From assembly GCA_003228405.1 (NCBI GenBank), contig QIDK01000096.1:1-37212 (forward strand): 37,212 bases of DNA. The letters run 5' to 3'. The notes beneath the pieces are model-generated. The model saw nothing but the letters and a program-made list of their open reading frames with translations. It was not told the origin of the DNA and did not search any database. Positions 4,507 to 8,642 of this stretch are shown piece by piece; position 1 is the stretch's first letter, and each line of letters opens with the position of its first letter. The translations under genes were made by a program, and so were the position numbers. Source of the DNA: Gammaproteobacteria bacterium (GTDB lineage: Bacteria; Pseudomonadota; Gammaproteobacteria; SZUA-229).

Positions 4507-4637
4507 GTGGTGTGGTGTTATTCAATTGATTGAAGAGCCACTAACGCCACAAACCAGGGCGAAGCTAACAGCCTCTCTTCGGGCTCAATCGTCAAACAAT
4601 TTAATGTAGAGTATCAGTTTTGGAGAAGCAACTGTCA

Positions 4638-5477
4638 ATGAATCAGGGCACACTTTATGTCATTGCTACCCCAATTGGCAACAGGGCCGATATGGGGGGA
4701 CGGGCAATTTCAGTATTAAAGCAGGTTGACTTAATTGCAGCTGAAGATACAAGGCATAGTAAAATACTACTCCAGCACTATAATATTAACGTGCCAATGC
4801 AGGCCTATCATGACCATAATGAAGAGCAGGCAACCCCTAAATTAATTCAGAGACTGCAGGCAGGAGAGAATATTGCGCTCATCTCTGATGCGGGTACGCC
4901 GCTATTAAGTGACCCGGGTTACCGCCTGGTAAAGGCGGCTCATGAGGTATCTATTAAGGTTAGCCCCATTCCAGGTGCCTGTGCGGCAGTGGCTGCGCTA
5001 TCCGTATCCGGCCTGGCAACAGATCGGTTTATGTTTGCAGGTTTTCCGCCTCATAAACAGGCAGCAAGGCTGAATTTTTATCAGGAATTTGAGGGCCAGC
5101 TTGCAACACTGGTGTTTTATGAATCCAGTCACCGTGTGCTGGCCTCAGTAAAAGACCTGCAGCAGGTTTTTGGAGGGCATCGCCGGGTAGTGCTGGCCAG
5201 AGAAATTAGTAAGCTTTTTGAAACTGTTCACAGTAGTACCTTGTCTGAACTGGTAGTATATATACAGACAGATGCTAATCAGCAAAAAGGCGAGTTCGTT
5301 ATTGTGCTAGAAGGCGCTGAGCAGCAAGTGAATGCACAGTCTGCAGAGCTGGAGCAGGTATTGAAGATTTTATTAGCAGAATTACCGGTTAAGCAGGCCA
5401 GTCAACTGGCTGCAAAAATCACTGGAATGAAAAAAAATATGGCATATAAGCTGGCCCTGAAAATAGCTGCTAAGTAA
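4638..5477 (+). CDS. rsmI: RsmI, 16S rRNA C1402 2'-O-methyltransferase
   Basis: SAM-dependent methyltransferase of the tetrapyrrole methylase fold that adds the 2'-O-methyl group to C1402 in the ribosomal P site, the partner modification to the N4-methylation by RsmH encoded downstream. The N-terminal LYVIATPIGN, the AAEDTRHSKILL motif, ISDAGTPLLSDPGYRLV and PGACAAVAALSVSGL are diagnostic. The ORF track begins at a TTG (4620). The ATG at 4638 is chosen because GGAGAAG sits 9 bases before it and family members start at this point. About 279 residues is normal. It is divergent from lpoA, as in other gammaproteobacteria, and is followed by a long AT-rich gap. Confidence 0.95.
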   Translation: MNQGTLYVIATPIGNRADMGGRAISVLKQVDLIAAEDTRHSKILLQHYNINVPMQAYHDHNEEQATPKLIQRLQAGENIALISDAGTPLLSDPGYRLVKAAHEVSIKVSPIPGACAAVAALSVSGLATDRFMFAGFPPHKQAARLNFYQEFEGQLATLVFYESSHRVLASVKDLQQVFGGHRRVVLAREISKLFETVHSSTLSELVVYIQTDANQQKGEFVIVLEGAEQQVNAQSAELEQVLKILLAELPVKQASQLAAKITGMKKNMAYKLALKIAAK

Positions 5478-5909
5478 TTGAAAAATGTATATATATCGAA
5501 GGTAACACGCATAAGAATAGTCTTTTTGTCGAAATAATTTACACTTTTTATGTGGTCGTAAGTGTTTGATATTTAACTAAATAATAAAAACACTAAAAAA
5601 TAGCTTGAAATTATTAGAAAACCATGTCGATTAATTTTACATAATGGGTTAATATATAAAACGTTTGAATTTGTATTTTTTTGTAAGGTGTTGGTTTTTA
5701 AGTAAATATGAAAATGGGTATGGGCTGTGCTAGTAAGCAACTACAGGGCTTGCAGCCGATGGCGCAAAACGAATCATTAAAAACAGAAAAGCGGCCATAA
5801 AATACAGGTCTGCAATACATCTAAATGAAAAAAATATTAGTTTGCCAGGTGTTTTGATTGATGCTTGATCAATCAGATACATAATCCGTTTTTTAGGTGG
5901 GGTTTCAAT
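5478..5909. other. AT-rich gene-free leader between rsmI and the first TPR-like gene
   Basis: About 430 bases without a supported ORF. The first 220 bases are very AT-rich with many A and T runs. A small nested hairpin, GGCTG...CAGCC enclosing TAGT...ACTA, lies at 5723-5757 and is followed by GATGGCGC. Near the end, AGGTGGGG at 5895-5902 gives a Shine-Dalgarno sequence for the ATG at 5910. I tried to fit the hairpin to known riboswitch consensus sequences and failed. The promoter of the downstream gene should lie here, but there are too many AT-rich hexamers to choose one. Confidence 0.5.
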
Positions 5910-6383
5910 ATGGCACCATTACAAGCAGTATATGAAGATTTTAGCGCATGTTGCGATGAGTTTGTTGAAGGGGTTAACTACCTTAAAGACCGCGCAATGC
6001 CAAAGGCGGTTAATCGTTTCCAGCAGGCATATGAGTCAGTCGACCGAGCTGATGTTTATCATAATAAATATGCTTCATATTGTGGCCTTGCCCGAGTTCT
6101 TTCCGGGGATGCAACGGGTCTGGAAATGTGTCGTCATGCATCAAAAAGTGAATTACATGATGGTGATGTCTATTTAAATCTCGCACGTGCCGAGTGGTTT
6201 TATGAAAATCGTAAAGCAGTGGTTATTGCTCTTAAGAAAGGTCTGCAAATTGATAACCGTCATCCGGGTTTGCGTCAGATGCGTGAACAACTGGGTATCA
6301 GACAACGTAGCTCATTGCCATTTTTACCGCGGACACATCCGCTAAATCATGCCATTGGCAAATTAATGCGACATAATAATTAA
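5910..6383 (+). CDS. Small TPR-like protein, paralog A, function unknown
   Basis: Protein of 157 residues with no signal peptide or membrane segment, probably cytoplasmic and mostly helical. Its middle looks like two or three degenerate tetratricopeptide units (MPKAVNRFQQAYE; DVYLNLARAEWFYENRKAVVIALKKGLQIDNRHPG). A distinctive tail, LGIRQRS...FLPRTHPLN, follows. It aligns without gaps to the product of the next gene over about 137 residues at roughly 46% identity by hand count. The strictly kept core includes NKYAS, CG, RVL, HDGDV, NLA, LKKGL and FLPR. The start is the ATG at 5910, which has AGGTGGGG before it, rather than the track's upstream start at 5865. A strong terminator follows, so it is probably transcribed alone. 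I recognise the fold type but not a function. Confidence 0.8.
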   Translation: MAPLQAVYEDFSACCDEFVEGVNYLKDRAMPKAVNRFQQAYESVDRADVYHNKYASYCGLARVLSGDATGLEMCRHASKSELHDGDVYLNLARAEWFYENRKAVVIALKKGLQIDNRHPGLRQMREQLGIRQRSSLPFLPRTHPLNHAIGKLMRHNN

Positions 6384-6447
6384 GCGTGGTCAAACTAAAA
6401 TAAAGCAGGATATATATCTGTAACAATAATAAGTATTAGCGTGGTTG

Positions 6448-6477
6448 GCCACAGGTGTTTCATCTGTGGCTTTTTTT
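6448..6477 (+). terminator. Rho-independent terminator after TPR-like paralog A
   Basis: A perfect 7-bp stem GCCACAG / CTGTGGC with a 9-base loop is followed directly by seven T residues. This is a textbook intrinsic terminator and separates the transcripts of the two TPR-like paralogs. Confidence 0.88.
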
Positions 6478-6490
6478 CAGTCGATATTTA

Positions 6491-6559
6491 AACCCGGGTC
6501 TTAACATGGGTGCGTACTGATTATTCTGTAAATTCGAAAACCCATGAAGTATCCGGGTT
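6491..6559. repeat. Nested inverted repeat upstream of TPR-like paralog B
   Basis: AACCCGG (6491-6497) pairs with CCGGGTT (6553-6559), and inside it CATGGGT (6505-6511) pairs with ACCCATG (6540-6546). The arms are about 21 bases with a 28-base spacer. It ends 46 bases before the ATG of the next gene. It could be a structured leader RNA, an operator, or a remnant of a palindromic repeat element; the sequence alone does not decide. Confidence 0.6.
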
Positions 6560-6605
6560 AATTCAATACCTGTTTAAACTTTAGCGTTTTTGAAATGGAA
6601 AAAAT

Positions 6606-7091
6606 ATGGATATAGAAAACTTAACCTATTCGGATTACAGTCTTTGTACTCCAAACTTTATCAATGGCATCGAATTTCTCAAGCGTGGCATGATCTCCCA
6701 GGCCAGTCATAGTTTTGAAATGGCCTATGAACAAACGTCGTATAATGATGCCCATTATAATAAATATGCTTCATTTTGTGGCTATACCCGCGTACTGAAT
6801 GGTGACCGGGGTGGTTTAACTATCTGTCGTGAAGTGGCGCGTAATGAAATGCATGATGGCGATGTATTTTATAATCTGGCTAAATCTGAATGGCATTTCA
6901 AAGATCGAAAGCGCACAGTGTTATCATTAAAGAAGGGATTGAAAATAGATTCTATGCATCCAGGTATGCGTGAGTTTAGAAATGATCTGGGTGTCAGAAA
7001 AAGTACTCCCATAGGTTTTCTACCCAGAAATCATGGCATAAATAATAAAGTAGGCAGGTTCTTTAGAAAGGAGCGCCAGGAACAACAATAA
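6606..7091 (+). CDS. Small TPR-like protein, paralog B, function unknown
   Basis: Protein of 161 residues, a tandem paralog of the preceding gene. It has the same layout: helical hairpins (MISQASHSFEMAYEQ; DVFYNLAKSEWHFKDRKRTVLSLKKGLKID), the shared HDGDV motif, the HPGMREF...LGVRK segment and the FLPRNHGIN tail, ending in a basic stretch (GRFFRKERQEQQ). There is no signal peptide or membrane segment. The ATG at 6606 is supported by the ungapped match to paralog A starting close to the N-terminus; GGAAAAAA before it is a weak ribosome binding site. It has its own upstream region after a terminator, with a nested inverted repeat, and a strong hairpin follows at 7144-7190. Both paralogs lie between rsmI and rnpB, where Pseudomonas (from memory) has no such genes. 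Function unknown. Confidence 0.82.
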   Translation: MDIENLTYSDYSLCTPNFINGIEFLKRGMISQASHSFEMAYEQTSYNDAHYNKYASFCGYTRVLNGDRGGLTICREVARNEMHDGDVFYNLAKSEWHFKDRKRTVLSLKKGLKIDSMHPGMREFRNDLGVRKSTPIGFLPRNHGINNKVGRFFRKERQEQQ

Positions 7092-7190: not shown

Positions 7191-7224
7191 TATCATAATC
7201 TTTTGATTTTACAGTATATTTTTA

Positions 7225-7233
7225 TGTTATAGT
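7225..7233 (+). promoter_or_regulatory. rnpB promoter, extended -10
   Basis: TGTTATAGT is an extended -10 element (TGn plus TATAGT). It places the start point exactly 7 bases later at 7240, the first base of the RNase P RNA (GAAGCTGG). A weak -35 candidate TTGATT lies at 7203-7208. Confidence 0.65.
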
Positions 7234-7239
7234 GTCTTT

Positions 7240-7620
7240 GAAGCTGGCTGGGCAATCGCTGTGTGATTTTTCCCTGTGGAATTTTGCAGAGAGGAAAGTC
7301 CGGGCTCCAAAGGGCAGGGTGCCAGGTAACGCCTGGGGGGTGTAGTGCCCACGGCTAGTGCAGCAGAAAGATACCGCCTCGGTTTACTATTTTTAGTGGG
7401 CTGGGGTAAGGGTGAAATGGTGCGGTAAGAGCGCACCGCGTTAACGGGTAACCGTTGCGGCAAGGTAAACCCCACCTGGAGCAAGACCAAATAGAGAAGC
7501 TGAGGCGTGGCCCGCGCTGCTTCTGGGTAGGTCGCTTGAGGCGCATAGTGATGTGCGTCCTAGATGAATGATTGTCACAACTTCGGTTGTACAGAACCCG
7601 GCTTACAGGCCAGCTTCACT
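7240..7620 (+). ncRNA. rnpB: RNase P RNA, bacterial class A
   Basis: Catalytic RNA of ribonuclease P, which trims the 5' leader from tRNA precursors together with the protein RnpA. The 5' GAAGCTGGCTGGGCAATCGC and 3' GGCCAGCTTCAC ends pair as helix P1. The universal core is clear: GAGGAAAGTCCGGGCTCC, GGGCAGGGTGCCAGGTAACG, then GTAAACCCCACCTGGAGCAAGACCAAATAG, and CAGAACCCGGCTTA near the 3' end. About 380 nucleotides is the usual class A size. The position between rsmI and mraZ agrees with Pseudomonas. ORF-track entries on the minus strand here are shadows. Confidence 0.97.
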
Positions 7621-7634
7621 TTATTTCCGCTGAT

Positions 7635-8183: not shown

Positions 8184-8642
8184 ATGATTTTTCGTGGCAT
8201 TAACAATCTAACGCTGGATGCAAAAGGCCGTATGGCAATTCCTTCGCGTTACCGTGACCGGCTCATGGAATCGTGCGGTGGGCGCCTGATTGTTACTGTT
8301 GATCGGGATCGTTGTTTGCTGGTATACCCTCAGCATGAGTGGGAAGTTATAGAAGCTCAGCTGGCGGGCTTGCCCAGCTTGAATAAGCAGTCGCGTTTGT
8401 TGCAGCGTCTACTTATTGGTCATGCGACTGAGGCAGAGCTGGACAGTCAGGGCCGAATTTTACTGCCAACCATGCTACGCGATTATGCCGGGCTGGATAA
8501 AAAATGCGTGCTTATTGGTCAGGGTAAAAAGTTTGAAATATGGGATGAGCAGCTATGGACAGAAAACCAGCAGATATGGCTGGATGAGGCAGATAGCGAC
8601 GAAGGCGATTTGCCAGTTGCGCTGGAAAGCCTGTCTCTGTAA
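8184..8642 (+). CDS. mraZ: MraZ, transcriptional regulator of the dcw cluster
   Basis: DNA-binding repressor that forms a ring of subunits and binds repeated GTGGG boxes upstream of its own gene. Two SpoVT/AbrB-like swapped-hairpin domains are visible, each with the family hallmark: LDAKGRMAIPSRYRD near residue 11 and LDSQGRILLPTMLRD near residue 92. The length of 152 residues equals that of E. coli. It is the first gene of the cluster. Its TAA overlaps the rsmH ATG by one base (TAATG), so translation of the next gene is coupled. The matching operator is at 8076-8100. Confidence 0.97.
   Translation: MIFRGINNLTLDAKGRMAIPSRYRDRLMESCGGRLIVTVDRDRCLLVYPQHEWEVIEAQLAGLPSLNKQSRLLQRLLIGHATEAELDSQGRILLPTMLRDYAGLDKKCVLIGQGKKFEIWDEQLWTENQQIWLDEADSDEGDLPVALESLSL

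Follow-up and report, generated by a model that had tools for sequence, protein, structure and literature searches.

Two neighbouring genes in the 37,212-nt stretch of gammaproteobacterial DNA analysed here (the window) encode the small cytoplasmic TPR proteins P1 and P2, whose family is gammaproteobacterial and uncharacterised and has a basic FLxR..LNxxLGxxxR tail in common. Comparison of sequences established the family and its fold class, its synteny with rnpB, the control box and terminator of the P1 gene, and the constraint on P1 and P2. Taking these together, we see about an even chance that P1 is a cytoplasmic TPR adaptor of an exosortase programme, encoded by a separately controlled duplicate that is insulated from rnpB. 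This lead is testable. It would place a cytoplasmic protein, P1, in a regulon whose known members are mainly exported exosortase substrates. The analysis also defines a small protein family, named by none of the libraries used here, with a conserved place beside an essential RNA gene.

P1, P2 and their protein family

P1 (group A; 157 aa; 5910..6383, + strand) and P2 (group B; 161 aa; 6606..7091, + strand) have exactly the coordinates and lengths given in the original prediction, which had also described them as paralogs that align without gaps and lie between rsmI and rnpB. Alignment confirmed the former, with 67 of 148 residues identical (45%), 70% similar, no gaps, and a pairwise E-value of 7e-58. 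The placement held as well: rsmI lies upstream (4620..5477, + strand; TIGR00096 above the cut-off), and rnpB, encoding the RNase P RNA (7240..7621, + strand; RF00010, 319 bits), and mraZ (8184-8642; TIGR00242) lie downstream; the identity of rsmH was also confirmed in the window. A and B are the only family copies in the window's genome. Both ORFs are under purifying selection, with dN/dS values within the genus of about 0.02–0.03 for P1 and about 0.05–0.09 for P2 (synonymous sites near saturation). Between the window and genome G050, P1 is 94.9% and P2 77% identical, while neighbouring genes range from 72 to 91% (RsmI 82%, MraZ 84%, FtsI 87%, MurE 76%, and MraY 91%; MurE and MraY are named from their position in the cluster). 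No other protein of the neighbourhood is as conserved as P1, and the faster evolving P2 is not its equivalent. The core words NKYAS, HDGDV, NLA, LKKGL, and FLPR, predicted to be fixed, are indeed shared by P1 and P2, but only parts of them are kept family-wide.

Profile searches gave P1 and P2 no convincing match in Pfam or NCBIfam and no confident match to a characterised family; a match of the latter kind, had there been one, would have counted against the original prediction. A signal sequence is not visible at either N-terminus. The predicted TPR-like nature was corroborated from several sides. TPR_2 (Pfam) is matched by five of 31 family members (best 1.3e-6), P1 and P2 themselves matching no TPR model, and a profile match to YrrB (2q7f) was obtained at 0.0011. 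AlphaFold, applied to 13 sequences from the window and its relatives, yielded TPR-type helix pairs at residues 16–128 (pLDDT 82.8); the basic tail, modelled at low confidence, includes a last helix at 144–154. The best Foldseek matches were TPR proteins (TM 0.5–0.6), including PcrH, with E-values of only 1e-3 to 1e-2. The family thus shares its helix-turn-helix pairs with TPR proteins (Pfam TPR_2 and TPR_16, YrrB, and designed CTPR), but differs from them by invariant residues of its own and by the conserved basic C-terminal tail outside the repeats. Across 38 members, A33, C74, R131, R141, and G150 are invariant, and F37, G59, G70, R75, L91, A92, E95, R101, G111, L121, L139, and N146 nearly so. 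The proteins are basic, with a median pI of 9.4 and a tail net charge of +7.

The family is present in 39 of 54 genomes of the window's order and in 33 of 370 genomes spread over the class. Among 398 genomes of the phylum, the matches outside the class were no more than long, generic TPR proteins at about 1e-7. The literature searched did not yield any account of a TPR family located at rnpB. A mobile or phage origin was rejected, as there was no plasmid match and no viral relative.

Control box and terminator of the P1 gene

The region upstream of P1 contains two motifs on the + strand. Motif 1 (TGTCGATTAATTTTACA; 5625..5641) is a candidate PrsR-type activator site (PEP-CTERM box), and motif 2 (GGGTATGGGCTGTGC; 5716..5730), 74 nt after it, is a sigma54-like −24(GG)/−12(GC) element; the predicted transcript start lies at about 5742, leaving a leader of about 165 nt. 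The same layout, comprising a 17-nt TGTCGR..TTACA motif, a spacer of 73–76 nt, and a sigma54-like site, recurs at fixed spacing in 11/11 group-A genomes from five genera, with motif 1 varying at its 3′ end in a few of them. In 11/11 genomes, GG[CT]A-N8-GC is placed 174 to 195 nt before the start codon, GG-N10-GC is likewise present in all 11, and the remaining leader is mostly diverged outside the genus. In the window's genus the sigma54 site is a weak match (6–7 of 10 consensus bases) and sites in other genera are more typical, so that the sigma54 case for this genus rests on the conserved position and on the typical sites elsewhere. A palindrome at about 5859–5880, which covers a sigma70-like site in the region before P1, was discounted, as relatives do not retain it.

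Compared by description rather than by the letters of the motif logo, the layout fits the published PEP-CTERM (PrsR) box, which consists of a 17-nt motif ending in TTTACA, a spacer of 62.8 ± 10.6 nt, and a sigma54 motif (Haft 2006, PMC1569441); the spacer upstream of P1 falls within the range of 32–92 nt used to define the box and is followed by a −24(GG)/−12(GC) motif. P1 thereby resembles PEP-CTERM/VPLPA-CTERM box genes (PMC1569441; pepA, PMC9850573), with which it also shares a long upstream region and a single-gene unit; pepA, moreover, has a putative hairpin terminator behind the gene (PMC9850573). However, the known members are mostly exported and carry a C-terminal sorting domain, whereas P1 has neither a signal peptide nor a sorting domain. 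The sigma54 box is absent from all family copies outside groups A and X, P2 included, and therefore says nothing on the family's older role.

A strict scan for the box in 1.52 Mb of G050 returned four matches, whereas shuffled sequence gave 0. One match belongs to gene A, one to a VPLPA-CTERM gene, and one to the gene of a secreted protein encoded near prsR; the fourth is a poor site. Three of the five strict matches outside the family precede VPLPA-CTERM genes (G050 contig C7, G052, and G031; fetched sequence), another precedes this secreted-protein gene, and those that remain are poor sites. Only one of about 16 VPLPA-CTERM genes in the 1.52 Mb carries a strict box. The window's genome (G000) encodes PrsR (707 bits), PrsK (731 bits), and XrtD (568 bits), all above the cut-off. 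Among the 11 group-A genomes, PrsR exceeds the cut-off only in G000, G050, G033, and G031, and no PrsR above the cut-off is present in the near-complete G051, G052, G028, and G032; since these four carry the box, the activator may be another protein. PrsT (TIGR02917) offers a parallel as a TPR protein linked to PrsK/PrsR and sigma54, which is what we propose for P1. Yet PrsT, a lipoprotein, has about 900 aa and its gene belongs to the exosortase locus, whereas P1 has 157 aa, lacks a signal sequence, and is encoded at rnpB; neither P1 nor P2 matches TIGR02917. In the window's genome, the exosortase locus lies on contig C95 (L276, 50–11404) and comprises prsR, prsK, the gene of XrtD (the VPLPA-CTERM exosortase), a PrsT-like TPR lipoprotein gene, and a sugar-transferase-like gene.

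Downstream of P1, the 3′ element of gene A (6436..6478, + strand) consists of an invariant TTAGCGTGGT(TG), a covarying terminator hairpin, and a T run in 11/11 genomes. The hairpin spans 6447–6471 directly before the T run (−16.4 kcal/mol). The terminator had been predicted to be perfect; it is real and strong, but not literally perfect, because two of its 11 pairs are G-U. Four pairs are changed on both sides, and 95% of cells are paired, compared to at most 48% in slid controls. A covariance model found one strong full-length match per genome, 3′ of gene A, all other matches being partial or weak, and a terminator of this kind is missing behind copies B and C. With its box and terminator, gene A forms its own unit in 11/11 genomes, which bears out the predicted separate control of P1 and P2, and judging from the hairpin, transcription of gene A should be kept from reaching P2 and rnpB.

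We further propose, as a hypothesis, that the 3′ element is a candidate 3′UTR-derived small RNA. It has the conserved single-stranded stretch, intrinsic terminator, and T run of 3′UTR-derived, Hfq-type small RNAs, but in contrast to these it is not in Rfam, where the search gave chance-level matches only, and is known here from its sequence. No conserved exact 11-nt complement of the element was apparent in the 11 genomes, apart from the locus itself. Genus-wide, the invariant GCGTGGTT word (6436–6447) is nearly repeated right behind the stop codon of gene A (6381–6392) as GCGTGGTCA, and its GTGG could pair with CCAC in the 5′ arm of the terminator.

Gene order at rnpB

The original prediction had placed P1 and P2, as a pair, inside a fixed rsmI-rnpB-mraZ block. 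Neither the pair nor the block is a general feature. Most genomes have a single copy, and three to four copies occur within the window's genus, with up to three in tandem before rnpB and a fourth transcribed divergently from miaB; A plus C, or one E copy, is the pattern in other genera. The upstream neighbours vary (rsmI, prmA, and pgi, with glgA in one family), mraZ or miaB lies downstream in most loci, and the link to rnpB is also present in families in which rnpB adjoins miaB instead of mraZ. A fixed pair tied to rsmI/mraZ was rejected by this copy-number survey and the variable neighbours; the fixed association is that of the family gene with rnpB.

In 39 of 39 fetched loci containing rnpB, the family gene precedes it in the same orientation, and the stop codon is often 9–100 nt away from rnpB, the gap in other linked loci being 140–300 nt or several kb. 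Linkage was found in about 21 of 31 resolvable family-positive genomes of the class and in 11 of 16 bacterial families sampled (unlinked: f34, f58, f91, f95, and f108), and in most of the family-negative genomes examined, rnpB is preceded by rsmI or by unrelated genes. Mapped onto the protein tree, the linked/unlinked label needs five changes compared to 8.9 in shuffles, so that shared descent of the linked state is possible; judged by the tree, it could stem from few events, and we do not claim many independent origins. Scattered homologues with no fixed partner, which the original prediction had named as speaking against it, were not what we found, as rnpB is the usual partner. The link had further been called only positional. 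A role in RNase P function would rest on synteny, but the link is conserved across families, and for P1 the exosortase-type sigma54 control box provides a functional lead elsewhere.

As read from its sequence, rnpB in the window has its own sigma70-like promoter at 7203..7233 (+ strand; TTGATT, 19 nt, extended −10 TGTTATAGT), and a −10-like box precedes rnpB in most linked loci.

Possible roles of the family and of P1

In the reading that we favour, the gene for a small cytoplasmic TPR adaptor, of which the P1 and P2 genes are tandem copies, usually sits immediately before rnpB in the same orientation. Within the lineage of the window, this gene would have been duplicated (A and B, with C in relatives), the copies would have diverged in control, and P1 would have become a separate, strongly constrained unit, presumably switched on via sigma54 by a PrsR-type activator whenever the exosortase/exopolysaccharide programme is active. 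The strong terminator would confine this inducible transcription to gene A, and together with the invariant 10-nt single-stranded stretch it may also act as a 3′UTR small RNA. P1 itself may serve some protein of the exosortase/exopolysaccharide programme as a TPR adaptor, with its basic C-terminal tail possibly reaching membrane, RNA, or protein. P2 lacks such control, sitting just before rnpB's own sigma70 promoter.

A tentative alternative, to which we give somewhat less than an even chance, is that the link to rnpB is passive: with the rnpB promoter in or right behind the TPR gene, the two would be hard to part, and the function of the protein would be unrelated to RNase P. Five loci of group E, which has a single copy, have about 10 nt between the stop codon and rnpB, and here CTG TTA TAT TAG (LLY-stop) coincides with the likely extended −10 box of rnpB; in two further loci (L105 and L107) the TPR ORF even extends 12–27 nt into the 5′ end of rnpB. 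The invariably shared orientation is what a promoter constraint requires, and terminator-like sites are as frequent in the gap between gene and rnpB (6/34) as behind other genes upstream of rnpB (5/32). Linkage nevertheless persists across the gaps of 140–300 nt or several kb, and the LLY tail is kept in relatives with the rnpB promoter elsewhere, so that overlap is not the whole explanation. An rnpB promoter can apparently sit within its neighbour's last codons, and rnpB can apparently be shielded from an inducible neighbour. That the family is instead an RNase P accessory factor, binding the holoenzyme or its RNA and coupled to it in production by gene order, appears unlikely to us. The same-strand place before rnpB in 11 of 16 families, irrespective of mraZ or miaB, and the basic proteins with their charged tails would suit such a role, but five families keep the protein away from rnpB, most rnpB-bearing genomes have no family member, the linked state could derive from few events, and gene A, under sigma54-type control of its own, is cut off from rnpB by its terminator. 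Nothing has been replaced, since the genomes have RnpA as usual. RnpA (PF00825), which is concerned with RNase P RNA, resembles P1 and P2 in being small and basic, but is unrelated to them in sequence and fold, and neither matches PF00825. A replacement of RnpA by the family protein was rejected, as rnpA is present elsewhere in the genomes.

It is improbable, in our estimation, that P1 is a dedicated cytoplasmic chaperone for exported proteins of the exosortase programme, with a TPR architecture of the PcrH/SycD type. The control box common to P1 and exported-protein genes and the appearance of PcrH among the structural matches point in this direction, but all TPR proteins give such matches, at the modest E-values reported above. 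Very improbable is a combined role, in which the family would be a genuine RNase P partner in many gammaproteobacteria and one duplicate, with its 3′UTR small RNA, would have been recruited to the exosortase/exopolysaccharide programme; if true, a surface programme would be coupled to RNA processing.

Some further observations concern individual genomes. In loci L056 and L117, sequence similar to the coding end of group E (GTGCATA..CTGTTATATT) occurs again just before rnpB, about 87 nt behind the TPR gene, where it is non-coding and promoter-like, as if duplicated. The window's genome has two rnpA matches (C232:919-1239 and C179:2152-2478), one of them perhaps on a contaminating contig (contamination estimate 5%). 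G034, a genome of the same order, has two rnpB copies (C25:123332-123691 and C14:863-1234), of which the one behind the TPR gene scores 257.8 bits, compared to 324 for the one behind rsmI.
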